Source of the DNA: Muribaculaceae bacterium
GTDB lineage: Bacteria; Bacteroidota; Bacteroidia; Bacteroidales; Muribaculaceae
Reading direction: 5' to 3'
NCBI GenBank assembly: GCA_016290325.1
Contig: JAEETL010000007.1
Span: 1-64,000, forward strand
DNA: 64,000 nt
Part shown: piece by piece, positions 490 through 17,943 of the stretch
How the letters are laid out: each line of letters begins with the position of its first letter
How positions within the stretch are numbered: position 1 is the stretch's first letter
Notes under the pieces: model-generated
Databases searched by the model: none
What the model was told of the DNA's origin: nothing
Seen by the model: only the letters and a program-made list of their open reading frames with translations
Translations under genes and position numbers: made by a program

Positions 490-528
490 TAAAATCAAAG
501 AAGGCCCTATGGTGCACCACAGAGCCTT
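490..528 (-). terminator. Hairpin terminator downstream of nuoN
   Basis: Bases 501-528 form a nearly perfect palindrome. Read on the minus strand it is a continuous 14-bp stem with two G-U pairs; on the plus strand these become mismatches. CTTTGATTTT follows on the minus strand. The strand asymmetry points to termination of the leftward nuo-atp transcript. Confidence 0.7.
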
Positions 529-593
529 CCCGTCTACATGAAACAAATCTTCTTCTGCTTTGGTTATGCTAAATGATATCAGAAGTAATAATC

Positions 594-683: not shown

Positions 684-2153
684 TCACTGGATAGCGGCGA
701 ACATGGCGCCGATGGCGTCAACCGCTCCGTTGATATAAGCATAGATACAGCTGATCAAGCCAATGAAGATCACACCCAGCACACACAGGATCATACCCGT
801 GCGCTCGGTCCAGTGGCTCTTGATGGTGGGAATCACGCAGTCGTCCTGACGCAGGAACATCGCCTTAACCACCAGCAAGTAGTAGTACAGGGAGATGATG
901 GTGTTGACCAACGCGATAAGTACCAGCGCATAGATGGCGACAGAGCCTTGATGGCAAGCGCCCACAAAGATGAAGAACTTGCTGAAGAAGCCTGCAAACG
1001 GAGGAATACCACCGAGCGAGAACATCGCCAGCATCATCGTGAAAGCGAGCCAGGGATTGGTCTTGAACAAGCCGTTATAGTCGTCCATGGTCACACGGCC
1101 GGTTTGACGCTCGATAGCAGCAATCACGCCAAAGGCGGCAAGGTTGCTGAAGATGTAAACCAGCACATAGTAGATCATCGAGGACATGCCCATCACATTG
1201 ACGGCAATGATGCCGAGCATGATGTAACCAGCCTGGGAAATCGACGAGAACGCCAGGAAGCGCTTGAGGTTGCGCTGACGCACGGCAAACAGGTTACCCA
1301 GCGTGATGGTGAGCACGATGATGGCATAGAGCATCCACTCCCACACCTGGGAATAGGCTGCACCAAACACCTGCACCAGAATTACCAGGAACGAGAAGGC
1401 TGCAGCGCCCTTGCTGATGACCGACAAGTAGCTGGTCACAGCCGTGGGCGAGCCCTGGTAAACGTCGGCTGTCCACAAGTGGAACGGCACGAGCGAGAGC
1501 TTGAAGCCCACACCTGCGATGACAAACGCCAAAGCGGCAATCAGCAACGCCGAATGGTTGCCAATGAGGGCAGTTGCAATCTCCTTGAAGTAGAGCGATC
1601 CGCTCATACCATAGACAAACGAGATGCCCAGCAGGAAAATCGCCGACGAGAAGATGGCGGTGAAGATGTACTTGGCCGCAGCCTCGTGGGACTCATAGTA
1701 TCGCTTCTCAAAGGCTGCCAGGGCAGCGATGGGCAGCGAAGCCGTCTCCAGACCGATGACAAACAGCAGGAAGTGGCGTGCCGAAATCATGAGGAACATG
1801 CCGAACAACGTCAACAGCGTCAACTCGTAGAACTCGCCGCGGCGAACGCTCACGAAGTCACTGTTGGTCCACTTCACGGCCTGCAGGAGCACCAGCAGCA
1901 CACCCACATTGAGGATGTTTTTCATCACCCATGTGGGGGCGTTGGACTCAAACATGCCGCCGAAGGCCTCACCAACGGCAGCGGGACAGCAAAAACAGTA
2001 TATCGTGTAGAGCGCCATCATGATGACCGTGAACACGGGCATGTAACGCTGAGTGCGCTCAGGCATGAAAGTGTCATAGATGAAAACAAGCAGGAAAACA
2101 AGCAACAGGCCAATTTCCTGAGGCATCAATAAGAATTGTGAATAATCCATCAT
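684..2153 (-). CDS. nuoN: NADH-quinone oxidoreductase subunit N
   Basis: This is an antiporter-like membrane subunit of respiratory Complex I, about 489 residues with around 14 hydrophobic helices. It contains the conserved proton-channel region with a Lys in helix 7 (VGFKLSLVPFHLWTADVYQG) and the GGIPPFAGFFSKFFIF motif. The frame extends to a TTG at 2168, but the first ATG is at 2153 (a second at 2150), so 2153 is used. It is the last gene of the nuo-atp cluster, 39 bases after nuoM, and is followed by heptad repeats and a hairpin terminator. NuoN, M and L are the three proton-pumping antiporter modules. Confidence 0.97.
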   Translation of the reverse strand: MMDYSQFLLMPQEIGLLLVFLLVFIYDTFMPERTQRYMPVFTVIMMALYTIYCFCCPAAVGEAFGGMFESNAPTWVMKNILNVGVLLVLLQAVKWTNSDFVSVRRGEFYELTLLTLFGMFLMISARHFLLFVIGLETASLPIAALAAFEKRYYESHEAAAKYIFTAIFSSAIFLLGISFVYGMSGSLYFKEIATALIGNHSALLIAALAFVIAGVGFKLSLVPFHLWTADVYQGSPTAVTSYLSVISKGAAAFSFLVILVQVFGAAYSQVWEWMLYAIIVLTITLGNLFAVRQRNLKRFLAFSSISQAGYIMLGIIAVNVMGMSSMIYYVLVYIFSNLAAFGVIAAIERQTGRVTMDDYNGLFKTNPWLAFTMMLAMFSLGGIPPFAGFFSKFFIFVGACHQGSVAIYALVLIALVNTIISLYYYLLVVKAMFLRQDDCVIPTIKSHWTERTGMILCVLGVIFIGLISCIYAYINGAVDAIGAMFAAIQ

Positions 2154-2192
2154 ATCTATCTTATGCAATTTTTATCAGGTTAAACACTTTCA

Positions 2193-3719
2193 TCACAAGG
2201 GCAGCGCAGCCTGCAATGCCTTAACGACGGGGTCAAAGCTGCTGCTGATAATGTTAATGAAGAAATTGGGGAAGCAACCGATGGCAGCTACAGCCAGAAT
2301 CAGCGTAGCTGTTGACAGGCGTTCCTCCCAGCTGGCATCGGTGAGCGTGCGGTGATGCTCATCCTGAACCTCGCCAAAGAGCAACTTGGCAACGACACGC
2401 AGGATGTAAACCGCCGTCACGACAATCGATGTGGTCGCCATGATGGTGAGCACGCGGTGGAAGGTGTCGGTGTGCTGGAACGAACCGAAGAAGATGGTCA
2501 TCTCGGCTGCGAAACCGCTCAAGAACGGCAGACCCAGCGATGCCAAACCGGCAATCACATAGCCCACGCCCAAATAAGGCATGATGTGCATCATACCACC
2601 CATGTCACGGATGTCACGCGTGTGGGTACGACCATAAATCATACCGATGAGAGCAAAGAACAGGGCCGTCATCAAACCGTGAGAGAGCATCTGCAATACA
2701 GCACCGGTCATCGCCGTGGTGTTGAACATGAGGATGGCAAACAGCACCATGCCGCAGTGACTCACCGACGAGTAAGCGTTGATGTACTTGAGGTCGGTCT
2801 GCACACATGCGCTCAACGCACCATAGACGATGCTGAAGCCCGTGAGCAGCAGGAAAATCCAAGCCAACTCATTGGCGGCAAACGGCATCAGGTAGATGGC
2901 GATGCGGAAGCAGCCATAACCACCAAGCTTCATCAGCACACCAGCGTGGAGCATCGACACCGCTGTGGGTGCCGAAGCGTGACCATCGGGAGACCATGTG
3001 TGGAACGGGAACATGGCACCCAACACGCCAAAGCCGACAAACGTCAACGGGAAGAGTACATATTGCCAACTGTGCGGAATCGCATCGTTATGGGCAATGT
3101 CCAGGATGTTCATCGTCAAGGGCTGACCCTCGGGGGCCGAATGGAAGTAGATACCAATCAGGCCAAGCATCAGGAAGGCAGAGCCACCCATCAGCATCAG
3201 CGTCAGCTTCATGGCACTATAGTTCTTGTTGCCGCTGCCCCACACACCAATCAGCAGGTACATGGGAATCAGTGCGACCTCATAGAACATGAACATCGTG
3301 AACAGGTCAATCGAGATAAAGAAGCCGAACACACCCGTGGACAGCAAGAAGAACCACATGAAGAACTGCTTAGGCAGCGGGTTCATCTTCCACGAGGCAA
3401 AAACGCCGGCAAACACGATAAACGCCGAGAGCAGGATCATCACCACGCTCACGCCATCAACACCAAGTGCCAGATGGACATTGAACGGGGCATACCACAT
3501 CACGTCGCTACGCAATATCATTTCGCTAGTATCGCCAGCGCCGCGGGCTTGCAGGAAGATGCTCACCAACCAAACGGCAAGCACCATGAGGGCGCATGCG
3601 CCCACTACAGCAACGGTCCTGATGGCCTTGATGCCGCGATTGCTGCACAGGGCCAGGCCTCCAAGCGTGAGCAGAGGCACGATCACAAAGTAAATCAGTA
3701 TATTATTGAAAAGTTCCAT
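2193..3719 (-). CDS. nuoM: NADH-quinone oxidoreductase subunit M
   Basis: A 508-residue polytopic membrane protein of the Mrp/NuoM family. It is one of the proton-translocating arms of Complex I. Diagnostic motifs are FYEVALIPMYLLIGVWG with the conserved helix-5 Glu, the Lys-bearing FHTWSPDGHASAPTAVSMLH loop, and LPFLSGFAAEMTIFFG. Length is normal for the family. It starts 35 bases after nuoL and lies in the conserved order L-M-N. No regulatory site is visible in the gaps, so it should be read from the operon promoter. Confidence 0.97.
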   Translation of the reverse strand: MELFNNILIYFVIVPLLTLGGLALCSNRGIKAIRTVAVVGACALMVLAVWLVSIFLQARGAGDTSEMILRSDVMWYAPFNVHLALGVDGVSVVMILLSAFIVFAGVFASWKMNPLPKQFFMWFFLLSTGVFGFFISIDLFTMFMFYEVALIPMYLLIGVWGSGNKNYSAMKLTLMLMGGSAFLMLGLIGIYFHSAPEGQPLTMNILDIAHNDAIPHSWQYVLFPLTFVGFGVLGAMFPFHTWSPDGHASAPTAVSMLHAGVLMKLGGYGCFRIAIYLMPFAANELAWIFLLLTGFSIVYGALSACVQTDLKYINAYSSVSHCGMVLFAILMFNTTAMTGAVLQMLSHGLMTALFFALIGMIYGRTHTRDIRDMGGMMHIMPYLGVGYVIAGLASLGLPFLSGFAAEMTIFFGSFQHTDTFHRVLTIMATTSIVVTAVYILRVVAKLLFGEVQDEHHRTLTDASWEERLSTATLILAVAAIGCFPNFFINIISSSFDPVVKALQAALPL

Positions 3720-3753
3720 TGTATATCCTTTCTATTTTGTCTAGACCGTTGAT

Positions 3754-5751
3754 TTAAAGTAATACACAAACCATTGTAATCGCTGCGAGCAGCAAGGCGC
3801 CCAGCAAGTACACATACACATAGGCCTGAATGCTACCCGACTGCAGGCGGCGGATGCCGAACGAGAGCGAGTTGGTCGCATCGGCCAGCAGGTTGAAGAA
3901 GCCGTCGATGATGTGGCGGTCAAACCAAGCAATGGGTACACAGATGGTCTGGAAAATCACCTTGTGGGTGATGAACTGATAGAGCTCGTCCATGTAGAAA
4001 CGCTTGTAGGAAGCGGTCCACAGGCCGCGCATCGCGTTGGCCATGCGCTCGGGCAGCGGGTTCTCCTTGCGGTACATTACCGTGGCCAGGCAGATACCCA
4101 CCAGGGCCACACCAATGCTCGAACCGGCAACTGTCCAGTCGATAGAGGTGTGAAGCGCGTGTCCGTCCCAAGTCACGAGGTCGTGGAAGGGAACGAAGCC
4201 CGCAACACACGAGATGGCTGCAAGGATAATCAGCGGCAACGTCATCGTCCAGGGCTGATCCTTGGGAGCGTGATGCTCATCGTGAACCTCATGTTTCTTC
4301 CAGAAGAAGATGAGGTAATAGATGCGGAACATGTAGAAGGCGGTCATGCAAGCCACCATCGACATCCACAGACCCCAGCCGAGTCCGCGATGATAGGCAG
4401 CCACGAGGATCTCGTCCTTACTGAAGAAGCCTGCAAACGGGGGAATACCCGCAATGGCCAAGCAGCCGATAAGGAAGCAGATGCTCGTGATGGGCATGAA
4501 CTTGTGCAGACCGTGCATCTTGTCGTTCTCATTGCTGTGAACGGCATGGATAATTGCACCGGCACACAGGAAGAGCAACGCCTTGAACATAGCGTGGGTG
4601 AACAGGTGGAACATCGACGCCATGTAACCCAGACCGTAACCCTCGTGAATCTCGATGAGTGAGTTCTCATTGGAGGAAACGGCCAGTGAGGTCATCATGA
4701 AGGCGATCTGCGAGATGGTCGAGAAGGCCAGCGCGCGCTTGATGTCGCTCTGGGTGCAGGCGATGGCAGCAGCATAGAATGCCGTGAACGCGCCGACCAC
4801 CAGGATGATGTTCATCGCACCCTGCACGAGCACATACAGCGGGAACAACCTTGCCACCAGGAACACACCAGCGACAACCATGGTCGCAGCATGGATCAAC
4901 GCCGATACGGGCGTGGGACCTTCCATCGCATCGGGCAGCCAGATGTGCAACGGGTACATCGCACTCTTACCAGCACCGCCAATAAAGATGAAGGTCAAAG
5001 CCCAAGCCATTACCGAGCAGCCCAAGAATGTGGCTCCACCGGCAGTGCTGATGGCGCTTTGAGCCGTCTCAAGGCTTCCTGACATCGTAGGACCGAACAC
5101 AAGCTGGTCAAAGTCGAAGGTCTTGGTATAGTAGCTCAAAATCATGACACCCAACAGGAAGAACAAGTCAGCCAAACGGGTGACGATAAACGCCTTCTTG
5201 TTGGCGTGATTAGCCGCAGGAGTCGAGTAATAGAAACCAATGAGCAGGTAGGACGAGAGACCCACCATCTCAAAGAAGACGAAAATCTGGAAAACATTGG
5301 TAGCCACCACAAGACCCAGCATCGAGAACGTGAACAACGCCAGGAAGGCATAGTAACGCTGGAATCCCTTCTCGGCGTTACCATCGTGGTCGCTCATGTA
5401 ACCCAAACTGTATAGGTGTACCATCAACGATACCGTGGTAATGACCACAAGCATCATCGCAGCGATGGGGTCAACCAGGACACCCATGCGCACCACCAGC
5501 GTATCGGTAAACGATAACCAGGCGGGATTGGCAACAACGACTGCCTGACGCACCCCGTCCACAATTTGGCCCTCACCGCTCCCGAAGAAGTAGGTCAGTG
5601 CTACGCCATAGGCCAGGATGGTATCGACAAGCATCGCCAGGACACCAATCACGCCAGTGATTTTTCTACCCATTTTCACCCCGACGAGTCCCAGGAACAG
5701 GAACATGAACAGGGGCAATGCTACAACTACTATTGCTAAATTCAGTGGCAT
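3754..5751 (-). CDS. nuoL: NADH-quinone oxidoreductase subunit L
   Basis: A 665-residue subunit that is the distal proton pump of Complex I and carries the long lateral helix at its C-terminus. Visible hallmarks are FEMVGLSSYLLIGFYY, the motif GGAGKSAMYPLHIWLPDAMEGPTPVSALIHAATMVVAGV, and GIPPFAGFFSKDEIL (each read in parts). An insertion rich in His, Glu and Asp (KKHEVHDEHHAPKDQ) lies in a loop near residue 490. NuoK ends only 5 bases upstream, which suggests coupled translation. Confidence 0.97.
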   Translation of the reverse strand: MPLNLAIVVVALPLFMFLFLGLVGVKMGRKITGVIGVLAMLVDTILAYGVALTYFFGSGEGQIVDGVRQAVVVANPAWLSFTDTLVVRMGVLVDPIAAMMLVVITTVSLMVHLYSLGYMSDHDGNAEKGFQRYYAFLALFTFSMLGLVVATNVFQIFVFFEMVGLSSYLLIGFYYSTPAANHANKKAFIVTRLADLFFLLGVMILSYYTKTFDFDQLVFGPTMSGSLETAQSAISTAGGATFLGCSVMAWALTFIFIGGAGKSAMYPLHIWLPDAMEGPTPVSALIHAATMVVAGVFLVARLFPLYVLVQGAMNIILVVGAFTAFYAAAIACTQSDIKRALAFSTISQIAFMMTSLAVSSNENSLIEIHEGYGLGYMASMFHLFTHAMFKALLFLCAGAIIHAVHSNENDKMHGLHKFMPITSICFLIGCLAIAGIPPFAGFFSKDEILVAAYHRGLGWGLWMSMVACMTAFYMFRIYYLIFFWKKHEVHDEHHAPKDQPWTMTLPLIILAAISCVAGFVPFHDLVTWDGHALHTSIDWTVAGSSIGVALVGICLATVMYRKENPLPERMANAMRGLWTASYKRFYMDELYQFITHKVIFQTICVPIAWFDRHIIDGFFNLLADATNSLSFGIRRLQSGSIQAYVYVYLLGALLLAAITMVCVLL

Positions 5752-5756
5752 AATCG

Positions 5757-6068
5757 TTAGAATTTCAGTTTAGTGATTTCGTTGATGTCCACCTTCTTGG
5801 CAATGCGGAACACATTGATGATGATGGCCAGGGCAAGCGCCGTCTCGGCTGCCGCGATAGCAATCGCGAACAGCGAGAAGAACATGCCGTCCATCTGTCC
5901 CGGGAACAAGTAGCGGTTAAACACAACAAAGTTGATATCGACCGAGTTAAGCATCAACTCCAGCGAGATCATGATGGCAATCATGTTCTTGCGGGTGATG
6001 AAGCCATAAACACCGCAGCCAAACATGATGAGGCTGGGGATGAGATACATAAATAATGTCAAATCCAT
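5757..6068 (-). CDS. nuoK: NADH-quinone oxidoreductase subunit K
   Basis: A small 103-residue subunit with three transmembrane helices, the normal NuoK size. It retains the membrane Glu residues of the family (MISLELMLNSVDINFVVFN and AIAAAETALALAII). These form part of the proton channel at the junction between the membrane arm and the quinone module. It lies 15 bases after nuoJ and 5 bases before nuoL. Confidence 0.97.
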   Translation of the reverse strand: MDLTLFMYLIPSLIMFGCGVYGFITRKNMIAIMISLELMLNSVDINFVVFNRYLFPGQMDGMFFSLFAIAIAAAETALALAIIINVFRIAKKVDINEITKLKF

Positions 6069-6083
6069 AACTACTCCATGTTT

Positions 6084-6599
6084 TTAGCGGCGACGGGCGA
6101 TAACCACACCTCCGATGATACAAGCCAATAACAACACACTGATGGCCTCAAAAGGCAACAGATAACCATACTTGTCGGTACTCAACAAGAACTGGCCGAT
6201 CTTCTCCATATTGATGTCCACCCCGCTGCTGAGCAGTTTGCCGGCAAAACCCGCATAACTGAACAAACCATAGCCACACAAAGCCACGCCACACAGGGCT
6301 GCCACCAACCCGAGGCAACGCCGTTGAGACGTTAACGCCTCGGCGCTTTTACCGGGTTGCTGGGTGAGCATGATGGCGAACACGAAAAGCACCAAAATGC
6401 CACCAGCGTAGACGGCGATTTGAACAGCTCCCAGGAACTGATAGTCCATCTGGAAGTAAATGATGGCTGTGGCAAACAGCACAAACAGCAGATAGGTTGC
6501 TGAGCGCAAAATCTTGCGCGTAGTAACCGTCAGCACCGAGAAAACGATGATGGCGATCGCAACGATAAAATACAAAATGATGTTACCTACTGATTCCAT
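6084..6599 (-). CDS. nuoJ: NADH-quinone oxidoreductase subunit J
   Basis: A 171-residue membrane subunit of Complex I with about five helices. The conserved third helix is visible as QIAVYAGGILVLFVFAIMLTQ, which in known structures contains the mobile pi-bulge. Its ATG shares one base with the nuoI stop codon (TAATG at 6601-6597), so translation is probably coupled. The C-terminus ends in a basic ARRR stretch. Confidence 0.96.
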   Translation of the reverse strand: MESVGNIILYFIVAIAIIVFSVLTVTTRKILRSATYLLFVLFATAIIYFQMDYQFLGAVQIAVYAGGILVLFVFAIMLTQQPGKSAEALTSQRRCLGLVAALCGVALCGYGLFSYAGFAGKLLSSGVDINMEKIGQFLLSTDKYGYLLPFEAISVLLLACIIGGVVIARRR

Positions 6600-7168
6600 T
6601 ATTCTTTATTTTCTTCTGGTTCTTGTTTCTTCTCGACCGGAGCAGGCTTTTCGGCCGGCTTTGCATCGGCCGGCGCAGCAGGCTTCTCAGCCGGTGCAGG
6701 AGCAGGAGCGGGTTCGTCCTTCTCGGGCAGGTAGTTGAGTTGCTTGTTGAGCTTCTCGCGCGTGAACACAGCCTGCTCAAAGTCGTTGCTGAACGCTATG
6801 GCATTGGTGGGACACACCTGCACACATAAACCGCAGAAGGTGCAACTGCCCAAGTCATACATGTACTTGTCCAGTTTCATTTTCTTCTTGCCGTTGGGCA
6901 GATCCACCATGCGCGTGTCGATGTGGATGGTCTGGTTGGGGCAGTTGCGCTCGCAGCTACGGCAAGCGATGCACTTGTGGTAACCGTTCTCATCATAGAT
7001 GAGCTCCAGCGTAGCCCTGAACCGCTCGGGAATCTTTAGCGTCGACCGGTTTTCGGGATATTGCTCGGTGACCTTGGGGGTCACCAGTTCCACTCCGGTC
7101 ACCTCCATGCCCTTAATCAGGCTATAAAAGCCTTTGAAGATTGAGACGAAATACTCCTTAATATTCAT
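6599..7168 (-). CDS. nuoI: NADH-quinone oxidoreductase subunit I (2x[4Fe-4S])
   Basis: This is the ferredoxin-like peripheral subunit that carries clusters N6a and N6b. Both cluster motifs are intact: CIACRSCERNCPNQ near residues 67-80 and CTFCGLCVQVCPTN near 109-122. After residue 150 it has a low-complexity tail of Pro, Ala, Lys and Glu (repeats of APAEKPAAPADAKPAEKPAP), which makes it longer than the core family. It is the first nuo gene after the inserted atp block, 37 bases downstream of atpG. It overlaps nuoJ by one base. Confidence 0.96.
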   Translation of the reverse strand: MNIKEYFVSIFKGFYSLIKGMEVTGVELVTPKVTEQYPENRSTLKIPERFRATLELIYDENGYHKCIACRSCERNCPNQTIHIDTRMVDLPNGKKKMKLDKYMYDLGSCTFCGLCVQVCPTNAIAFSNDFEQAVFTREKLNKQLNYLPEKDEPAPAPAPAEKPAAPADAKPAEKPAPVEKKQEPEENKE

Positions 7169-7205
7169 AATAAAACGTATAATCTTATAATCATTTCATG
7201 TTAAG

Positions 7206-8090
7206 TTAGCGCTCCACCTGTCCGCCCAAGATATCGAGCAACTCGGTGGTGATGCCCTGCTGACGCAGTTTATTGTACTCCAGCTGCAACTCATCGAGCA
7301 GTTCCTTGGCGTTATCGCTTGCCGCCTGCATGGCCATCACGCGTGCGCTCTGCTCGCTAGCGGCACTCTGGATGAACACATCCTGGAGCATCGACTTGAT
7401 GTGCAGGGGAAGCACGGTGTTGAAGATGGTGTTGGCGTCGGGCTCAAACAGGCAAGGGCTATTGGCAGCACGCGGATCGACGTTCTCGGCAAGTCCCTGA
7501 TAGCTCACTGGCAGCAACTGCTCACGCGTGAACACTTGCTTGCCCGTTGAGATGAAGTGCATGTAAAGCATCTCCACTCGGTCATAGGTGTGCTCCAGGA
7601 AACGGGTCTTCATCAAGTCGGTGAAGGCATACAGTGCCTCGCTGTCGCTACGGGTATTCAACGCCACTTTCTCCATCTGGATGTCACCCACGGCAATTTT
7701 GGTAACCGCCTTGGTCATCTTCTTACCCACAGGGATAATGGTGATGCCCACCTTATTACCAAACTGCTTGCGCACCTGATTGATACTGACGAGCAACTGC
7801 TTGAAAATGTTGACATTAAAACCGCCACACAAACCATCGTCGCTACCAAAGACAACCAGGGCGACACGCTCCACATCGCGGTTGACGATGAGTGGCGAGT
7901 CAAACTGCTGGTCGGTCACGAGCAAGTGACTGATGACGTGTTGCACCATCATGCGGTAGGGAGACAAACGTTGAAGTTGCCCGGTTGCCTTGCGCATCTT
8001 TGACGAGCTGATCATCTTCATGGCGCTCGTCGTCTTCTGCGTCGAAGCGACCGACCCTATTCGCGTCTTGAGTTCTCTTAATGTTGACAT
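7206..8090 (-). CDS. atpG: ATP synthase F1 subunit gamma
   Basis: The central rotor shaft of F1, 294 residues. The N-terminal helix (LRELKTRIGSVASTQKTTSAMKMISSSKMRKA) and C-terminal helix (KELLDELQLEYNKLRQQGITTELLDILGG) of the gamma coiled coil are clear. Between them lies the Rossmann-like segment with VVFGSDDGLCGGFN. It is the last gene of the atp block, 22 bases after atpA. The next gene, nuoI, follows after 37 bases with no visible terminator. Confidence 0.97.
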   Translation of the reverse strand: MSTLRELKTRIGSVASTQKTTSAMKMISSSKMRKATGQLQRLSPYRMMVQHVISHLLVTDQQFDSPLIVNRDVERVALVVFGSDDGLCGGFNVNIFKQLLVSINQVRKQFGNKVGITIIPVGKKMTKAVTKIAVGDIQMEKVALNTRSDSEALYAFTDLMKTRFLEHTYDRVEMLYMHFISTGKQVFTREQLLPVSYQGLAENVDPRAANSPCLFEPDANTIFNTVLPLHIKSMLQDVFIQSAASEQSARVMAMQAASDNAKELLDELQLEYNKLRQQGITTELLDILGGQVER

Positions 8091-8112
8091 CTTGCTAACC
8101 TATCTTGCTGGT

Positions 8113-9708
8113 TTAGTTGGCCGGAGCCTGAACGTACCTAGAAGTGATCTCGGCAGCGGCATCCTTGAGCTTAGTCATGACATCATCGTCGATCTTACCG
8201 CTACGCAACACATCGAGCACATCGGCCTGGTGCTTGCCCTGCAGGTACTGGATAAACAGTTTTTCAAACTCAGCGACCTTGTCCAGGGGCACATCTCGCA
8301 AGAGGCCGTTCACACCGCAATAGATGACAGCCACCTGTTCCTCGACCTTCATGGGCGTGTACTGGGGCTGGACGAGCAGACGCTCGTTCTTGCGGCCTGT
8401 ATCAATGGTACGGGCCGTAACGGGGTCAATATCACCGCCGAATTTGGTAAAGGCTTCCAACTCACGGTATTGCGCCTGAGCAATCTTGAGGGTACCAGCC
8501 ACTTTCTTCATACACTTGATTTGAGCGTTACCACCCACACGGGATACCGAGATACCCACGTTCACTGCCGGGCGAATACCCGAATTGAACAATGCGGTCT
8601 CAAGGTAAATCTGACCATCGGTAATCGAAATCACGTTAGTGGGGATATAGGCGCTCACGTCACCTGCCTGAGTCTCAATGATGGGCAACGCTGTGAGCGA
8701 ACCACCACCCTTAACAATGGGCTTTAGAGCCTCAGGGAGGTCATTCATCACGCTGGCCACGTCCTGATTCTCATTAATCTTAGCAGCACGCTCCAACAGA
8801 CGGCTGTGAAGGTAGAAGATATCGCCAGGATAAGCCTCACGACCAGATGGGCGCTTGAGGATCAGCGAAATCTCACGATAGGCCACCGCGTGTTTAGAAA
8901 GGTCGTCATAAATCACGAGCGCGTCGCGGCCGGTGTCACGGAAGTACTCGCCAATGGCAGCACCCGCAAAGGGGGCATAGTAACGCATTGAAGCCGAATC
9001 GGCAGCTGTAGCAGCCACAACGATGGTATAAGGCAAAGCGCCCGCCTCATCGAGTTTGTTGACCAATGCAGCAACAGTCGATGCCTTTTGGCCGATGGCG
9101 ACATAGATGCAGTATACCGGCTTGCCGGCTTCGTAATTAGCCCTCTGGTTAATGATGGTGTCCACCGCGATGGCAGTCTTACCGATCTGGCGGTCTCCAA
9201 TGATGAGCTCACGCTGGCCACGGCCGATGGGAATCATCGAGTCGATGGCTTTGAGGCCCGTTTGCAGCGGCTGATTCACCGGTTGACGGAAAATCACACC
9301 AGGAGCCTTGCGCTCCAACGGCAAACGCAGTTTTTCACCCTCAATGGGTCCCTTGCCGTCGATGGGCTTAGCGAGCACGTTGATCACGCGGCCCAGCAGG
9401 CCCTCACCCACCTCGATTGAGGCAATAGCGCCCGTGCGACGAACTTTCATGTTCTCGGTCACGGTATCCACCTCGTCGAGCAGGATGATACCCACATCGC
9501 TCTCCTCCAGGTTCATGGCCACGCCGGTCACGCCGTTCTCGAACTGCACGAGCTCGTTGGCCTCTACATTGTGCAGGCCATAGGCATGAGCCACGCCGTC
9601 GCCCACCTCAAGGACGGTACCTTCTTCCTCAAAGGCCACCTGTCTCTTGGCGATGTCCTCGACGAGCTGCTGTTTCAGTATATCAGATATTTCACTGGGA
9701 TTAATCAT
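8113..9708 (-). CDS. atpA: ATP synthase F1 subunit alpha
   Basis: The non-catalytic nucleotide-binding subunit of F1, 531 residues. It has the beta-barrel N-domain, the Walker A motif GDRQIGKT near residue 170, and the conserved VSRVGGNAQIKCMKKVAG segment near residue 375. Length matches Bacteroidetes AtpA. It follows atpH after 11 bases and precedes atpG by 22, in the usual delta-alpha-gamma order. Confidence 0.98.
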   Translation of the reverse strand: MINPSEISDILKQQLVEDIAKRQVAFEEEGTVLEVGDGVAHAYGLHNVEANELVQFENGVTGVAMNLEESDVGIILLDEVDTVTENMKVRRTGAIASIEVGEGLLGRVINVLAKPIDGKGPIEGEKLRLPLERKAPGVIFRQPVNQPLQTGLKAIDSMIPIGRGQRELIIGDRQIGKTAIAVDTIINQRANYEAGKPVYCIYVAIGQKASTVAALVNKLDEAGALPYTIVVAATAADSASMRYYAPFAGAAIGEYFRDTGRDALVIYDDLSKHAVAYREISLILKRPSGREAYPGDIFYLHSRLLERAAKINENQDVASVMNDLPEALKPIVKGGGSLTALPIIETQAGDVSAYIPTNVISITDGQIYLETALFNSGIRPAVNVGISVSRVGGNAQIKCMKKVAGTLKIAQAQYRELEAFTKFGGDIDPVTARTIDTGRKNERLLVQPQYTPMKVEEQVAVIYCGVNGLLRDVPLDKVAEFEKLFIQYLQGKHQADVLDVLRSGKIDDDVMTKLKDAAAEITSRYVQAPAN

Positions 9709-9719
9709 CTCTCGGAATA

Positions 9720-10265
9720 TTAATTTTTCTTTTGCAGTTGTAACCGCAATTCATTCAACTCTCTCTTTACTGACGCGTCAAGCACCAGCCCGTTGATTGC
9801 GACGGTGAAACCGCCTATCAGTTCGGGGTCTATCTTCTGCTCGATCTCGAGCGTCATTGCCCCCAGGCGCTTCTTAACGATGTCGGTAATGGCATTGACC
9901 TCGGCCTCGGGCATGGGGACGGCGGTGGTGATGACCACGTGGGCTATCTCATGGGCCTCGCGGTAGAGATCGACGTATGCGAGGGAAATCTTCTGCAGGT
10001 ACTCGGAGCGATTGTTTCGCACACACATCAGCAGGAACTTGTCCAGCGAGCTGCCGGGCCTACCGCCCGCGAGTTTGAGCATGAAGGCCCCCTTGGCCTC
10101 GTCAGAGATTTCGGGGTTGAGCACCGCGCGCTTGAGTTCGTCGATAGCGGTGTAACGGAAACTGAGCTTCTTCAGGAGCTCATAGATTTCCTCTGAGTCG
10201 CCGTTTTCAACGGCATACTTGTACAGCGCTTTGGCGTATCGGCGTGGGATTAGTCCGTCACTCAT
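9720..10265 (-). CDS. atpH: ATP synthase F1 subunit delta
   Basis: The stator subunit that joins the top of F1 to the b subunits, 181 residues. The N-terminus (LIPRRYAKALYKYAVENG) and the C-terminal signature (EIEQKIDPELIGGFTVAINGLVLDASVKRELNELR) are typical. It starts 6 bases after atpF ends. It is called by sequence signature, length and position between b and alpha. Confidence 0.95.
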   Translation of the reverse strand: MSDGLIPRRYAKALYKYAVENGDSEEIYELLKKLSFRYTAIDELKRAVLNPEISDEAKGAFMLKLAGGRPGSSLDKFLLMCVRNNRSEYLQKISLAYVDLYREAHEIAHVVITTAVPMPEAEVNAITDIVKKRLGAMTLEIEQKIDPELIGGFTVAINGLVLDASVKRELNELRLQLQKKN

Positions 10266-10271
10266 GATGCG

Positions 10272-10769
10272 TTAGTTTTTAGTCTCAACCTCACTCAAAT
10301 ATTGATCAACAAGCGCCTTTTGGGCATCGTCGCTGGCAATGTTGCGGCGAATCACCTTTTCGGCGATTTGCAGGGCCAGGTCACCCACCTCGGCGCGCAG
10401 TTGCTTCTCGGCCTCCTTGCGAGACTGCTCAAGCGAGACTTGGGCGGCCTCGGAAACCTTCTTGGCCTCGTCAGCAGCATCGCTACGGGCCTTCTCGATG
10501 AGCTCGTTGCGCATCTTGGTGGCCTCGCGCAGGATGTCGGCCTGCTGAGCGTGGGCCTCGGCAATCAACTTGTCGGCCTCGGCCTTGGCATTGTCAAGAT
10601 TGGATTTGGCTTCCTGTGCATAGGCTACACCCTTGTCAATCAAGTCAGCACGCTCCTCCATCGACTTGATGATGAAGGGCCATGCCCACTTGGCAAGAAT
10701 GCCAAAGAGGCACAGGAATGAGATAAACATCCAGAATGCCAGGCCAAATTCAGGCTTGAAAAGTTCCAT
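10272..10769 (-). CDS. atpF: ATP synthase Fo subunit b
   Basis: The peripheral stalk subunit, 165 residues. One N-terminal transmembrane helix (FGLAFWMFISFLCLFGILAKW) is followed by a long, charged, Ala- and Glu-rich coiled coil (EAKSNLDNAKAEADKLIAEA and onward). This is the standard b-subunit layout. There is a single b gene and no b' copy. It lies 25 bases after atpE and 6 bases before atpH. Confidence 0.96.
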   Translation of the reverse strand: MELFKPEFGLAFWMFISFLCLFGILAKWAWPFIIKSMEERADLIDKGVAYAQEAKSNLDNAKAEADKLIAEAHAQQADILREATKMRNELIEKARSDAADEAKKVSEAAQVSLEQSRKEAEKQLRAEVGDLALQIAEKVIRRNIASDDAQKALVDQYLSEVETKN

Positions 10770-10794
10770 CTAAGAAAACCGGTTAAAAGGGTTA

Positions 10795-11058
<264 letters not shown>

Positions 11059-11092
11059 TTATTATTTTATTTTGTTATTCTAATCAAATTTT

Positions 11093-12187
11093 TCAATCGG
11101 CATCACCGGCAGGAGCCTCGTCGTGGTGCTCATGCACATGGGCCATTGAGATGAACATGGTGGAAAGAATCGTGAACACATAGGCCTGGATAAAGCTTAC
11201 CAGAACATCAAGCAAGAGCATGAACAGCGACAGGAACACCGAGATCGGGGTCATCACGCCGCCCACGACTGTGTTGAACATACTGCCGAAAATGAAGATC
11301 AACAGCATGAACACGATCACTACCATGTGGCCACCCATCATGTTAGCGAAAAGACGAATCATGAGAGCGATGGGCTTGGTGAAGATGCCAAACAGCTCAA
11401 TAATCTGCATGAGGGGCACCGGCAGCTTGAGCGCTTTGGGTACCTCGGGCCAGAAAATCTCCTTCCAGTAGTGCTTTGTTCCCGTGAAGTTAGTTACCAG
11501 GAAAGTAAGCAATGCGAGCACTGCAGTAACCGCCAGATTGCCCGTAAGGTTAGCACCACCGGGGAAGATAACGATCAGTCCCAACAGGTTCATCGTGAGG
11601 ATAAAGAAGAATGCCGTGAGCAGGTAAGGCGCATATTTAGGAGCCTCCTTACCCATGATGGGGCGGATGGTATCGGTATAGACGAAGTCCACCACCAGTT
11701 CCAGCGCGGCAGTAAAGCGTCGCGGTGCCTTAAGCCCGTTTTTCTTGTACCAGTTACGCACCTTGAAGACCATGAGCAGCACCAAGAGCGCCGCAATGAT
11801 AATTCCAGCCACGTTTTTAGTGATTGACAAGTCAATGGGGCGGTACTGGCTGCCATCGGGCAATACCTGTACCACCTTGTTGTTGTAATCACCGCCCTTG
11901 GCAATCTGGAACCCATCATATTGCTCACCATGCTCGAGGTGGCTTGACATGAAGACATGCCACTTGTCGTCCTGAGCACGCACGATGACAGGTAACGGGA
12001 TGCGCTTGCTATGATTGAACGGCACCTCCCAGCCATAGGCATCGCCCAAGTGGTCGAAAATAATCTCTTGGGGGTTCACCTCGGAAGCCTCACCCTGATG
12101 GGCACTGTGGTGTGCCGCATCGGCATACCCTAGCGCCATGAGAGCGATGATGGCTACAGCGATGATTGCTGTGATTGCTTTCTTCAT
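11093..12187 (-). CDS. atpB: ATP synthase Fo subunit a with cleavable signal and periplasmic extension
   Basis: The stator channel subunit. The frame is open to 12286, but that overlaps atpC; the ATG at 12187 starts a clear signal peptide (MKKAITAIIAVAIIALMALG) and lies 10 bases after atpC, so it is chosen (364 residues). After the signal come about 90 soluble residues, then the helices of subunit a. The essential Arg lies in KPIALMIRLFANMMGGHM, and the final helices include LVSFIQAYVFTILSTMFISMA. The tail is His- and Asp-rich. The N-terminal extension matches Bacteroidetes AtpB as I know it, compared with about 270 residues in E. coli. Confidence 0.95.
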   Translation of the reverse strand: MKKAITAIIAVAIIALMALGYADAAHHSAHQGEASEVNPQEIIFDHLGDAYGWEVPFNHSKRIPLPVIVRAQDDKWHVFMSSHLEHGEQYDGFQIAKGGDYNNKVVQVLPDGSQYRPIDLSITKNVAGIIIAALLVLLMVFKVRNWYKKNGLKAPRRFTAALELVVDFVYTDTIRPIMGKEAPKYAPYLLTAFFFILTMNLLGLIVIFPGGANLTGNLAVTAVLALLTFLVTNFTGTKHYWKEIFWPEVPKALKLPVPLMQIIELFGIFTKPIALMIRLFANMMGGHMVVIVFMLLIFIFGSMFNTVVGGVMTPISVFLSLFMLLLDVLVSFIQAYVFTILSTMFISMAHVHEHHDEAPAGDAD

Positions 12188-12197
12188 AGTTTTGCGG

Positions 12198-12431
12198 TTA
12201 ATAAAGACACACCGACACCACATTATCCTTGACATCGGCCACACCGCCGTGAATGTCACGTTCGACGGTGTTGCCATCGACCACATAGCTCATGCGTCCC
12301 GCCTTGAGGGCTGCGATGAGCGCGGCATGGTTCTTGAGCACCTGAAACTGGCCCATAACACCTGGTAGTGTCACCTGGTCAACAGTGCCTTCAAACTCGA
12401 TTTGTTCAGCCGATATGATTTTGAGTGTCAT
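12198..12431 (-). CDS. atpC: ATP synthase F1 subunit epsilon, short form
   Basis: Only 77 residues, covering the N-terminal beta-sandwich (LKIISAEQIEFEGTVDQVTLPGVMGQFQVLKNHAALIAAL). The C-terminal two-helix domain that can inhibit ATP hydrolysis in other bacteria is absent, not broken: the frame ends cleanly and atpB follows. It lies 36 bases after atpD. Short epsilon subunits are known in Bacteroidetes, so this is likely the native form. Confidence 0.94.
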   Translation of the reverse strand: MTLKIISAEQIEFEGTVDQVTLPGVMGQFQVLKNHAALIAALKAGRMSYVVDGNTVERDIHGGVADVKDNVVSVCLY

Positions 12432-12467
12432 GTTATATATTTAAATAATGTATAACCTAATGCTGTT

Positions 12468-13970
<1,503 letters not shown>

Positions 13971-14018
13971 TCAATTATTGACTTTTTATTGTTGTGTTAT
14001 TGTTGTTAGATTGTAATA

Positions 14019-15101
14019 TCAGGCACCAAAGTACCAGCCCTTGGTGACGATAATGGCCATCACTACCAGGTTCACCAGGCCAATGGGCATGAGGTAACGC
14101 CACTCTAGCGCCAGCATCTGGTCGATGCGGACACGGGGGAACGACCAGCGGATCCACATGAAGATGAAGGTCATGAAAAAGGCCTTACCCAAGAACCATA
14201 CAACGCTGGGGATGTAGTCCATTACTGCGTTAAAGCCATCCCAACCGGAGATGTGCAACGGCATCCAGCCGCCCAAGAAGAGCAGCGCGGCGATACCCGA
14301 CACGATAAACAGGTTCAGATACTCGGCCAAGTAGAAGAAACCGAAGTGGATACCAGAATACTCGGTGTGGTAACCGGCGGTCAACTCGTGCTCAGCCTCG
14401 GGGAGGTCAAACGGGCCACGGTTGTTCTCGGCATTAGCGGCGATGATATAAATAATGAAGGCGAGGACGGCGGGCAGGTGACCTTTAAAGATGAACCAGC
14501 CGTCGGCCTGAGCCTCAACGATGCCTGTAACCGACATAGTGCCGGCCAAGCAAACGATTGTCAAGATGGAGATGCCACAGCTCAGCTCGTAGCTGATCAT
14601 CTGGGCACCACTACGCATTGCGCCAATGAGGGTATACTTGCTGTTACTTGCCCAACCAGCGAGCAGAATGCCCAGCACACCGATTGACGATACAGCAACG
14701 ATGAAGAACACACCGATGTTCATGTCAACAATTTGCAGACCCCTACCCCACGGCAGGCAAGCAAAGGTGAGCATCGAGGCAATGAGCACCAGATAGGGCG
14801 CCAACTTAAACAGGAACTTGTCAGTGTGCCACAGGGTAATCAACTCCTTCTGGAGAATCTTGATCACGTCAGCAAACACCTGGAGCAAACCCCACTTACC
14901 CACACGCATCGGGCCAAGACGGCACTGAATCCAACCGCAGACCTTGCGCTCGTAGAAGATGTAGAACATGGCGATGAGCGAATATGCCACCAGCAGGCCT
15001 ACAGCCACCAGCACACACTCGACGGTGGTGGTGAGCCATGCGGGCATGAAACGCATCAAGAACTCATGAATCCAATTTGTGACTATTCCGAAGTCAAACA
15101 T
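14019..15101 (-). CDS. nuoH: NADH-quinone oxidoreductase subunit H
   Basis: The membrane subunit that forms much of the quinone-binding chamber, 360 residues with about eight to nine helices. The conserved loop [21 protein letters not shown] and the segment [24 protein letters not shown] with its acidic residues are intact. NuoCD ends 45 bases upstream. In the usual nuo order the next gene would be nuoI; here eight atp genes come first. Confidence 0.97.
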
Positions 15102-15146
15102 ATCTTTATTCTTTTGTGGTTATGTTCGTTCTAATTAACTCGTTGT

Positions 15147-16781
15147 TTATCGGTCGATGTCAGGGATGACGAAGTCGAGCGATGCAGTGATAGTGATCAG
15201 GTCGGCAATCAGGTTGTCACGGCAAGTGAGGTCAACCACGCCGATAAGGTTGAAGCACGGCGACTGGAAATGAACGCGCACGGGCTTGGTATTACCGTCG
15301 CTCTCGATGTAAACGCCAAAGGCGCCGCGGCTAGCCTCAACCTGCTGGTACCAATGGCCAGCGGGCAATTTCATCACCTTGGGCACCTTGGGAGCGATAT
15401 ACTCGCCCTGGATACCCTCGGCCTCCAGCTTGTCACAAGCCTGGCGCAGGATCTTGATGCATTGCTCCATTTCCTTCATGCGCACCATGTAGCGGTCCAT
15501 CGAATCGCCATTCTGGTAAATCACCTCGTCAAAGTCAAACTCGTTGTACAATGAGTAAGGATGAGTCTTGCGCACATCACAGTGAACACCGCTGGCACGT
15601 CCCGACGGACCGGTGATGGCATAGTCGATAGCATCCTGCTTGTTCAGGATACCGACGCCAGTCATGCGGTTCACGGCAATAACGTTGCCCGTGAAGAGCT
15701 TGTGGTATTCCTTGAGGTTCTTTTCAATCACGTCACAGGCGTGGCGCACGTCCTTGATGAAGTCCTCATGCACATCGGCCACCACGCCGCCAATGGTGCT
15801 GTAGCTCATTGACATGCGGGCGCCGCAGGTGCGGTCAAAGATATCGTAAATCAACTCACGGTCGCGGAAACCATAGAAGAATGCCGTTGTGGCACCTTGG
15901 TCCATGGTCAAGCAACCATAGCTCAACAGGTGAGACGAGAGACGCATCAACTCGTCCATCATCAAGCGAATGAGTTCAGCGCGACGGGGCACCTCCAAGC
16001 CAAGGGCCTTCTCAATACACAAGCACATGCAGTGGCGGTTGATATGAGCGGCCATGTAGTCCATGCGCTCGGTATAGAGCAGCATTTGGGGATAGGTGAG
16101 GTCCTCACACATTTTCTCGATGCCGCGGTGGATGTAACCGCTCACGACATCAATCTTCTTAACCACCTCGCCGTCAAGGCTAGCGCGGTAGCGCATCACA
16201 CCATGGGTTGAAGGGTGCTGCGGGCCCACGTTGACGACATACTCGTCATCCTCAAATACCTTGCCGTCCACCTTTTTCACCTTGCCGTTCTCGTCCTCGA
16301 CCCAACGGCAAGTATAGTCCTCGCCCGTCTCGTCCTCGAGACGCAGGGGGTTGGTAGCGGGATCGTAGTCCTTGCGCAGGGGGTAACCCACCCAATCGTT
16401 GCGCAGGAACATGCGGCGCATATCAGGATGACCGATGAAGATGATGCCAAAGAAGTCATACACCTCGCGCTCCTGGAAGTTGGCCACGGGCCACAGGTCC
16501 ACCACCGAGTGCAACATTGGCTGCTCACGGTCGGGGGCGGTCACCTTGACGTGAATGACCTCCTGGGTATCGGTATTGGTTAAGTAATACACACATCCAC
16601 GGGCATCGGGCCACTCCATACCCACCACAGCGGTGAGGTAGTCAAAGTGCAACTGGGTCTTGAGGGCTTTTGCCAAATCGTGCCACTGCGCGTCAGCCAC
16701 GGTCACCAGCAGGAACTCGCCGGTGGTGTCGATTTGGGCCTGAGGGCACAACTGGGTGATTTTGTCTTGTATCTCTGCCAT
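15147..16781 (-). CDS. nuoCD: NADH-quinone oxidoreductase fused subunits C and D
   Basis: One 544-residue chain joins NuoC (about residues 1-180; motif REVYDFFGIIFIGHPDMRRMFL) to NuoD (about 185-544; motif VGPQHPSTHGVMRY). NuoD contributes to the quinone site; the conserved His of QHPSTHG is present, and the C-terminus ends LDFVIPDIDR as in other NuoD proteins. C-D fusion is known in several lineages, including Bacteroidetes and enterobacteria. It follows nuoB after 20 bases. Confidence 0.97.
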   Translation of the reverse strand: MAEIQDKITQLCPQAQIDTTGEFLLVTVADAQWHDLAKALKTQLHFDYLTAVVGMEWPDARGCVYYLTNTDTQEVIHVKVTAPDREQPMLHSVVDLWPVANFQEREVYDFFGIIFIGHPDMRRMFLRNDWVGYPLRKDYDPATNPLRLEDETGEDYTCRWVEDENGKVKKVDGKVFEDDEYVVNVGPQHPSTHGVMRYRASLDGEVVKKIDVVSGYIHRGIEKMCEDLTYPQMLLYTERMDYMAAHINRHCMCLCIEKALGLEVPRRAELIRLMMDELMRLSSHLLSYGCLTMDQGATTAFFYGFRDRELIYDIFDRTCGARMSMSYSTIGGVVADVHEDFIKDVRHACDVIEKNLKEYHKLFTGNVIAVNRMTGVGILNKQDAIDYAITGPSGRASGVHCDVRKTHPYSLYNEFDFDEVIYQNGDSMDRYMVRMKEMEQCIKILRQACDKLEAEGIQGEYIAPKVPKVMKLPAGHWYQQVEASRGAFGVYIESDGNTKPVRVHFQSPCFNLIGVVDLTCRDNLIADLITITASLDFVIPDIDR

Positions 16782-16801
16782 ATTTAATGGATTTTATCGG
16801 G

Positions 16802-17413
16802 TTATTTGGATTGTTCGGCCAGTGCCTTGCCGTCATACTTGAGGTCTGACAGTTTTTCCTTGCGGTTCACGCCGCCAAAGTACTTCTGCACTTTGATCTT
16901 GCGTTGCAACTGCATCAGGGCATAAAAGAATGCCTCGGGACGGGGCGGGCAGCCAGGGAGATAAACGTCAACGGGGATAATCTCGTCAACACCCTTGACC
17001 ACGCAGTAGCTGTTCTTGAACGGGCCGCCACTGACGGTGCATGAGCCACAAGCGATGACATACTTGGGCTCGGCCATCTGCTCATAGAGGCGCTTCAACG
17101 CGGGAGCCATGCGGTAGTTGATGGTACCCTGACACATGATGTAGTCGGCTTGGCGGGGGCTATTGCGGGCCACCTCAAAGCCGTAACGAGCCATGTCGTA
17201 ACGGGCAGCGCCCAGACACATGAACTCGATAGCGCAGCAGCTGGTACCGAAACACAACGGCCACAACGAGTTGCTCACACCCCAGTTCATCAACTGGTCC
17301 AGCTTGCCAACAATGATGTTGGTGCCGCCAGCGCGCAGTTGCTCTACCAGATTATCGATATACTCATTGTCCTTGAAGTCTTCATGCTTCATCGACTTGA
17401 TTTTCACTTCCAT
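16802..17413 (-). CDS. nuoB: NADH-quinone oxidoreductase subunit B (cluster N2)
   Basis: A 203-residue subunit that holds the terminal [4Fe-4S] cluster N2 beside the quinone site. The cluster ligands are visible: tandem Cys in FGTSCCAIEFM, Cys in ACGSCTVSGG and Cys in YLPGCPPRPEAF. The first 20 residues are a charged extension. It overlaps the end of nuoA by 10 bases, which supports one transcript and coupled translation. Confidence 0.97.
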   Translation of the reverse strand: MEVKIKSMKHEDFKDNEYIDNLVEQLRAGGTNIIVGKLDQLMNWGVSNSLWPLCFGTSCCAIEFMCLGAARYDMARYGFEVARNSPRQADYIMCQGTINYRMAPALKRLYEQMAEPKYVIACGSCTVSGGPFKNSYCVVKGVDEIIPVDVYLPGCPPRPEAFFYALMQLQRKIKVQKYFGGVNRKEKLSDLKYDGKALAEQSK

Positions 17414-17778
17414 CTCAACGCTCCTTTCTTCCAGGCATAAGCCAGACCTAAAACGAGAATAACAAGGAAAGTTCCCACAGCGAGCAGCGCCTGAGTGCCG
17501 ATGTTCTTACAGATGGTTGCCCAAGGGAACAGGAATACCGTTTCCACGTCAAACATCAGGAACAGGATGGCAAACAGGTAATAGCCCACATGATACTGGG
17601 CCATCGAATCGCCTCGGGTGGGAATACCGCACTCGAAAGGCTCACCTTTCTTCTCAGTGTAACTGCGCGGGCCTATGAGCCACGCGATAACCAGGGCACC
17701 GACCACCAGCAACACACCGGTCAATGCCGCCGTAATCGCTAAAGTCGTGCTCTGTACTCCGAAAATTGAAAAATCCAT
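17404..17778 (-). CDS. nuoA: NADH-quinone oxidoreductase subunit A
   Basis: A 124-residue, three-helix membrane subunit. The conserved loop KKGEPFECGIPTRGDSMAQYHVGYYLFAILFLMFDVETVFLFPW (read in parts) is intact, including the Cys that labels the open/closed states in other species. It is the first gene of the cluster; its leader is about 130 bases and starts at the promoter 17913-17943. No nuoE, nuoF or nuoG gene precedes it. Confidence 0.97.
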   Translation of the reverse strand: MDFSIFGVQSTTLAITAALTGVLLVVGALVIAWLIGPRSYTEKKGEPFECGIPTRGDSMAQYHVGYYLFAILFLMFDVETVFLFPWATICKNIGTQALLAVGTFLVILVLGLAYAWKKGALRWK

Positions 17779-17912
17779 AAAAGATGATTAGTATTTGTTT
17801 TGTTTAATTTTTGGCAGGTCTATTTATGAGTACATTTCAAAAGTCCCTACTGCACAACATCTTACACGCAAAGGGCGCGAACATATTGGCAGTAGAACCC
17901 TTAAACTCGGTG

Positions 17913-17943
17913 CAAATATACACATTTTTAATTAAACAGCCAA
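17913..17943 (-). promoter_or_regulatory. Promoter of the nuo-atp operon
   Basis: On the minus strand TTG (17943-17941) is followed after 20 bases by TATATTTG (17920-17913). Both elements and the spacing match the Bacteroides consensus. This is the only strong match I found for the 18-gene cluster. Confidence 0.8.

Follow-up and report, generated by a model that had tools for sequence, protein, structure and literature searches.

An ATP synthase operon nested within a headless complex I operon in Muribaculaceae and six other Bacteroidales families

Complex I and ATP synthase loci in Bacteroidales

We analysed the genes for respiratory complex I (nuo) and F-type ATP synthase (atp) in a 64,000-nucleotide (nt) stretch of DNA, the window, from a Muribaculaceae bacterium (assembly GCA_016290325.1, contig JAEETL010000007.1), in which a complete atp operon lies inside the nuo operon. 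The window comprises bases 1-64000 of a 93.7-kb contig, in a genome of 2.93 Mb assembled in 86 contigs and about 92% complete. To our knowledge, operons encoding two separate membrane machines are unusual. We equate the family Muribaculaceae with the group named S24-7 or 'Ca. Homeothermaceae'. Ormerod et al. (2016, PMC4936053) reported that 26 of 30 S24-7 genomes have an F-type ATP synthase, the genes of which are integrated into the locus for complex I. The complex I of this group was described with 11 of the 14 subunits and without NuoEFG, and one genome, H5 (85% complete), was listed as having neither complex I nor ATP synthase (PMC4936053). Because that survey describes the integrated locus, nesting within the family is not new and has been in print since 2016. 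The relevant passage gives the integration in one sentence without an insertion point, and spread outside the family, origin and regulatory signals do not appear in it.

Two further systems are close in part. Bacteroides fragilis has a headless 11-subunit NUO encoded by the operon BF638R_0841-0850, likewise without nuoEFG, and since the account of this operon gives ten consecutive tags, atp genes are presumably absent from its interior (PMC7002350). In Bacteroides and Prevotella a minor complete atp unit has the order beta-epsilon-a-c-b-delta-alpha-gamma; it is treated as an atp unit, with nuo or NADH unmentioned in the main text (PMC5709465). In Prevotella bryantii a headless complex I has been suggested to help convert a Na+ gradient to an H+ gradient (PMC6560451).

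The window resembles the S24-7 description in having atp genes inside a complex I locus that lacks nuoEFG, and belongs to the same family by depositor label. It shares the absence of nuoEFG with B. fragilis and differs in its internal atp genes, and its atp order is identical to that of the Bacteroides and Prevotella unit. What is added here are gene-exact junctions, a spread over seven families, an apparently single origin and the regulatory anatomy of the locus; full-text searches of an open-access library with few subscription journals brought up no earlier account of this spread or origin.

The preliminary description of the window had proposed 18 same-strand genes in the order nuoA-B-CD-H / atpD-C-B-E-F-H-A-G / nuoI-J-K-L-M-N, and the open reading frame (ORF) check bore out both the order and the coordinates. 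All 18 are ORFs on the minus strand, running from 17778 to 684, each protein matched its own NCBIfam subunit families, and the eight atp genes stand as a complete operon between nuoH and nuoI with gaps of 51 and 37 nt at the two junctions. The start of atpB was corrected: it is most likely at 12187 rather than at the first ATG at 12286, because a signal-peptide-like sequence begins at M34 (by eye) and the longer form would overlap atpC by 89 nt. The features are as follows, nuoA to atpD being assigned by ORF and NCBIfam match and the other genes by NCBIfam match.

17913..17943 (-), promoter-like site of Bacteroidetes type, TTG-N20-TATATTTG (from sequence; also in a generic sigma-70 scan)
17779..17912 (-), nuoA leader of about 130 nt, containing a ACCTGCCAAAAATTA motif and a conserved stem whose arms are at 17897-17889 and 17853-17845 (alignment, covariation count)
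17404..17778 (-), nuoA
16802..17413 (-), nuoB
15147..16781 (-), nuoCD fusion
14019..15101 (-), nuoH
13968..14018 (-), nuoH-atpD junction, 51 nt, without hairpin or promoter motif
12468..13967 (-), atpD (beta)
12198..12431 (-), atpC (epsilon), 77 amino acids (aa), N-terminal domain only
11093..12187 (-), atpB (a), start corrected
10795..11043 (-), atpE (c), without Na+ signature (also by alignment)
10272..10769 (-), atpF (b)
9720..10265 (-), atpH (delta)
8113..9708 (-), atpA (alpha)
7206..8090 (-), atpG (gamma)
7169..7205 (-), atpG-nuoI junction, 37 nt, without strong hairpin in the window
6599..7168 (-), nuoI
6084..6599 (-), nuoJ
5757..6068 (-), nuoK
3754..5751 (-), nuoL
2193..3719 (-), nuoM
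684..2168 (-), nuoN
498..531 (-), terminator-like hairpin 3' of nuoN, 15 pairs followed by a T-rich stretch

Spread and origin of the nested order

Among 80 loci of named relatives from several projects, surveyed with tblastn, nuoH was directly followed by atpD in 78 (77 strictly, and L052, in which the nuoH start is missing), and atpG followed by nuoI was seen in 65, the others being too short or unscored. In the two exceptions, L038 and L040, nuoH is followed by a gene whose product appeared by eye to be of LRR/BspA-like type. A second sample consisted of 89 genomes of the family, at least 90% complete and from 26 genera. NuoH and AtpD matches were adjacent in 88 of these, with 22-176 nt between them, including the one-contig genome G276; in the remaining genome, G239, NuoH gave no match and AtpD was present only in part. 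Given the same junction in 88 of 89 family genomes including a one-contig genome, the gene order is due neither to chance nor to misassembly. A metagenome-assembly artefact might be suspected from a window genome in 86 contigs and 92% complete, and was rejected as the same junction occurs in independent assemblies; with nuoH directly joined to atpD in 78 of the 80 named loci, which stem from several projects, in single-contig G276 and in the published survey as far as it describes the locus (PMC4936053), this explanation is practically out of the question.

In L040 the inserted gene (11139-13289, plus) encodes a 716-aa LRR/BspA-like protein with a dockerin-like end and lies between nuoH and atpD on the operon strand. 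The same insert starts after nuoH in L038 (2349-3605, plus), which stops inside it, where L040 continues with atpD.

The gene-neighbourhood search across the Bacteroidales proposed in the preliminary description was carried out on 148 genomes with 113 family labels, 57 of which had a strong NuoH match and 53 of these also a strong AtpD match. The adjacency recurred in 11 of the 53, distributed over seven families: f1 (3 genomes), f19 (2), f25 (2) and f57, f64, f83 and f102 (1 each). Family f1 is that of the window, Muribaculaceae by depositor label, other genomes of the same genus being deposited as Prevotellaceae or Porphyromonadaceae. These 11 genomes were every sampled member of the seven families, and the full 18-gene order was present in all 10 that were fetched, the window's own apart. 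The preliminary description had allowed that the order might be common and already described across the Bacteroidales: it is described for the family (PMC4936053), and with seven of 113 family labels it is not common across the order.

Outside the seven families nuoH ran straight into nuoI in all 25 fetched genomes. In 23 of them atpD was fetched and lay elsewhere, the other two (G087 and G116) having no strong AtpD match. In families f9, f17, f27, f38 and f99 an identically ordered set of these eight atp genes stood apart from nuo. Seven atp genes were seen in f21, where G080 showed no atpG next to atpA and the stretch from G189 broke off before it, and several other outside families had atpD-atpC without the remaining atp genes in the fetched stretch. 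None of the nine f99 genomes with NuoH was nested (24 sampled; read by eye), and nuo was uninterrupted in these nine.

The phylum was represented by 138 genomes, none from the window's order except the window's own, and 124 of them had a NuoH match at E <= 1e-40. No NuoH and AtpD lay side by side among the matches listed, whose coordinates were read by eye and which do not include the best NuoH place of G292, G307, G347 and G362 and some second copies; within this scope, independent gains elsewhere in the phylum were rejected. The nearest pair among the matches listed was in G427, about 6.8 kb apart on opposite strands. By eye, nuoH and atpD lay about 7-13 kb apart on opposite strands in G414, G321, G341, G325, G352, G364, G360 (f127), G422 (f145) and G427 (f139), which belong to other classes of the phylum; closeness of nuo and atp may be recurrent.

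Trees were built from concatenated nuo proteins (37 taxa) and concatenated atp proteins (28 taxa). Earlier nuo and combined trees were dropped for cross-hits between nuoL, nuoM and nuoN, and the atp tree from that run was retained. In both trees the 13 nested genomes formed one clade, in which f83 branched first; it was supported at 1.0 by the nuo proteins and at 0.993 by the atp proteins (nested against f99 and outgroups), and the later atp tree gave this grouping as well. The simplest history for one clade is that a ready-made atp operon was inserted once, between nuoH and nuoI. Secondary un-nesting in f99 was rejected: no f99 genome with NuoH is nested, nuo is uninterrupted in all nine and f99 falls outside the nested clade, so that an ancestral separate state is simpler for this family. 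The nuo and atp operons of f99 are convergent and about 13 kb apart on one contig in G159, and about 70 kb apart in G449. We speculate that a closeness as in G159 would ease a short-range move of the atp operon; the distance in G449 speaks otherwise.

AtpD was 75-77% like that of the window in the nine f99 genomes with NuoH. Of the 15 without NuoH, ten had a 69-70% AtpD and five had no strong AtpD; two of the ten were fetched, and both had atpD-atpC alone in the stretch. Replacement or transfer of the atp operon within f99 is possible.

Composition of the two enzymes

All of nuoA, B, C, D, H, I, J, K, L, M and N are present, with C and D fused, giving 11 subunits from ten genes. As nuoE, F and G are not among the 18 genes of the locus, it encodes a headless complex I (NDH-1 without N-module). 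The preliminary description had spoken of a proton pump; the complex I genes are indeed there, and the term needs qualifying because the locus lacks nuoEFG. A genome search for the NuoF-type domain alone (PF01512, in a genome about 92% complete) gave one match on another contig, a 635-aa protein with ferredoxin-like ends (L134:913-2820, G000:C29), followed by an iron-sulfur protein gene (2835-3515). From their architecture we take these two genes to resemble a bifurcating [FeFe]-hydrogenase set.

All eight F-type subunits (a, b, c, alpha, beta, gamma, delta and epsilon) are encoded, and one F-type ATP synthase was found in the genome: PF00006 matched atpA, atpD and a 698-codon frame on another contig, which from its size we take to be Rho. 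A Na+-binding c subunit is marked by Gln in helix 1 and by Ser or Thr after Glu in helix 2. In an alignment with the Na+ ring 1yce the c subunit of the window keeps the ion-binding carboxylate, Ile replaces the Gln and Gly follows the Glu. With the Na+ signature missing at two positions, the ATP synthase is likely to be H+-coupled.

In 81 nested loci epsilon has 77-79 aa; among 24 non-nested relatives it has about 77-80 aa in 22, and 90 and 108 aa in the other two. A short epsilon as a special trait of nesting was thus rejected, the same length being found in those 22 relatives; lengths of 77-80 aa in nested and non-nested loci indicated that almost every member of the order sampled here lacks the C-terminal domain of epsilon.

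Signals for expression and alternative explanations

The 250 nt ahead of each gene, with gene starts estimated from tblastn, were scanned for one strict motif following the Bacteroidetes promoter consensus. Of 84 loci, 48 had the motif before nuoA, against 1 of 90 before atpD and 1 of 76 before nuoI, and no other gene had more than 3. In the window the promoter that the preliminary description had placed at 17913-17943 is present as the TTG-N20-TATATTTG site, and the nuoH-atpD junction has no promoter motif; no generic sigma-70 site lies on the operon strand within 250 nt of atpD or nuoI. The one terminator that had been described corresponds to the strongest minus-strand hairpin, at 531-498 (15 pairs), the other candidates on this strand having at most 8 pairs and none lying in either junction. 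With gene starts again estimated from tblastn, a terminator-like site came after nuoH in 1 of 90 loci and after atpG in 3 of 76, against 6 of 11 for nuoN.

Codon adaptation was measured against nine ribosomal-protein genes chosen by eye from L176. It was 0.646 for nuo and 0.635 for atp (p = 0.76), and a codon-bias difference as a sign of unequal expression was rejected, as none was found. Together the nuo and atp genes were above 29 other ORFs of the window (median 0.578, p = 0.003), whose status as genes was unchecked. Given a promoter motif ahead of nuoA, none or rare ones inside, a terminator after nuoN and similar codon adaptation, one polycistron across both junctions appears likely.

The stretch of about 130 nt that separates nuoA from its promoter shows conservation in 34 loci that were chosen by eye from 84 (the rearranged L014 and more distant loci were left out), including the ACCTGCCAAAAATTA motif just ahead of nuoA. 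The nine-pair stem in this leader had 81.3% of cells paired against 74.9% in shuffled alignments and 33-60% when slid, and 25 two-sided changes against 12.6 in shuffles. RNAalifold returned five pairs only (-1.1 kcal/mol) and not the nine-pair stem, in our opinion because the aligner shifts the stem arms. Since the stem was chosen after inspection and the automatic fold did not return it, the covariation is suggestive only. No Rfam family matched in the leader, the one weak hit being below threshold and elsewhere. We regard the nuoA leader as a candidate regulatory RNA.

The account that we consider highly probable is that of a stable, clade-wide fused respiratory operon, which arose by one old insertion and is co-transcribed from one promoter. 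In one ancestor of the seven families the eight-gene atp operon would have come between nuoH and nuoI of a ten-gene headless operon and then been kept. The promoter ahead of nuoA, with the structured leader, would give a polycistron of about 17 kb for an 11-subunit complex I without NADH module, using another electron donor, and an H+-type F1Fo ATP synthase, and the two complexes would rise and fall together. The most plausible role, judged from gene content, is a joint supply of headless ion-pumping complex I and ATP synthase. The preliminary description had gone further and expected a fixed ratio of pump to synthase. A fixed ratio is not supported: the two complexes require their subunits in different numbers, and several relatives, though not the window, have strong atpG-nuoI hairpins. 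Subunit ratios would be set by translation and RNA processing rather than by the nesting.

Several results weigh against this account. The strict promoter motif is missing ahead of nuoA in 36 of 84 loci. Between 300 and 18200 a generic sigma-70 scan gave 29 sites where 14.8 are expected, several of them on the operon strand inside the operon, including one in nuoH at 14384-14355, about 390 nt before atpD. Terminator-like sites occur within 110 nt 3' of atpE in 22 of 77 nested loci against 8 in shuffled controls. With gene starts estimated from tblastn, the atpG-nuoI spacer folds strongly more often than any other junction (z <= -3 in 10 of 76, minimum free energy (MFE) <= -15 kcal/mol in 23 of 76), while the nuoH-atpD junction does so in 1 of 88 and 5 of 88 at the same thresholds. 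Strong stem-loops, some followed by T-runs, were seen in atpG-nuoI spacers of 80-201 nt in L037, L039, L041, L046, L047, L065, L068, L078, L117, L119 and L120, and not in the window. Three loci including L119 and L120 were flagged as terminator-like, and L065 and L068 appeared so by eye. Such hairpins might terminate transcription weakly, mark sites of processing or protect the RNA, and nuoI-N could be attenuated or processed there in some relatives. Finally, the nuo tree joins f99 with f9, f56 and f21, and the atp tree sets f99 beside the nested clade, so that the two disagree on the sister group and on the exact place of f99.

The same observations bear on the idea that nuoA-H, atpD-G and nuoI-N are adjacent but separate transcription units, with promoters inside upstream genes or of another sigma type. 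The spacer hairpins of some relatives and the sigma-70-like sites inside the operon, such as 14384-14355, would fit such an arrangement, and a motif scan with one consensus over 250 nt could have passed over its promoters. Yet the spacers in the window are just 51 and 37 nt, neither contains a terminator-like site, the motif is found ahead of atpD in 1 of 90 and ahead of nuoI in 1 of 76 loci, and the codon adaptation of the nuo and atp genes is similar, so that we judge separate units improbable. A more serious alternative, though still rather doubtful, is that the nesting is neutral: an insertion made by accident would have been kept only because cells seldom tolerate the splitting of two operons that they need, and co-expression would bring no benefit. 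Drift and low rearrangement would also lead to one origin and later inheritance, and the nuoH-atpD junction tolerates the 716-aa LRR-type gene in L040, the same insert beginning in L038. Against neutrality it may be set that no un-nesting was seen in 88 of 89 family genomes from 26 genera nor in the eight sampled genomes of the other six families. Compared with both alternatives, the fused operon with one promoter remains our preferred account. Its gene content and order, conservation, grouping in one clade, promoter-motif positions and lack of nuoEFG in the locus are observed directly, and co-transcription, co-regulation, H+ coupling and a selective reason for retention are inferred.

A bolder version, which we hold only tentatively and at somewhat less than an even chance, is that the locus forms one energy regulon under control of the leader, which the seven families would share as a derived trait. 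One promoter and the covarying RNA leader would then govern the headless complex I along with the only rotary ATPase found in the genome, and a lineage-specific hairpin after atpG would tune the distal membrane arm. If so, complex I and ATP synthase could form an obligate pair, with gain, tuning and loss in common. The observation itself is correct and largely ordinary once relatives are compared; the remaining interest lies in the possibility that one transcript and one leader control both machines. The locus ties the genes of a respiratory pump that lacks the NADH module to ATP synthase genes in a gut lineage, which may be read as a genetic hint that the headless complex I conserves energy through the ATP synthase. 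Joint loss would become predictable, as in H5, which is described as lacking both (PMC4936053), and the nesting marks a clade of Bacteroidales cleanly by its gene order.

Between nuoN and the terminator-like hairpin, at 594-668 of the window, there are short repeats of AGGCTTTAGG type, one copy being inverted.

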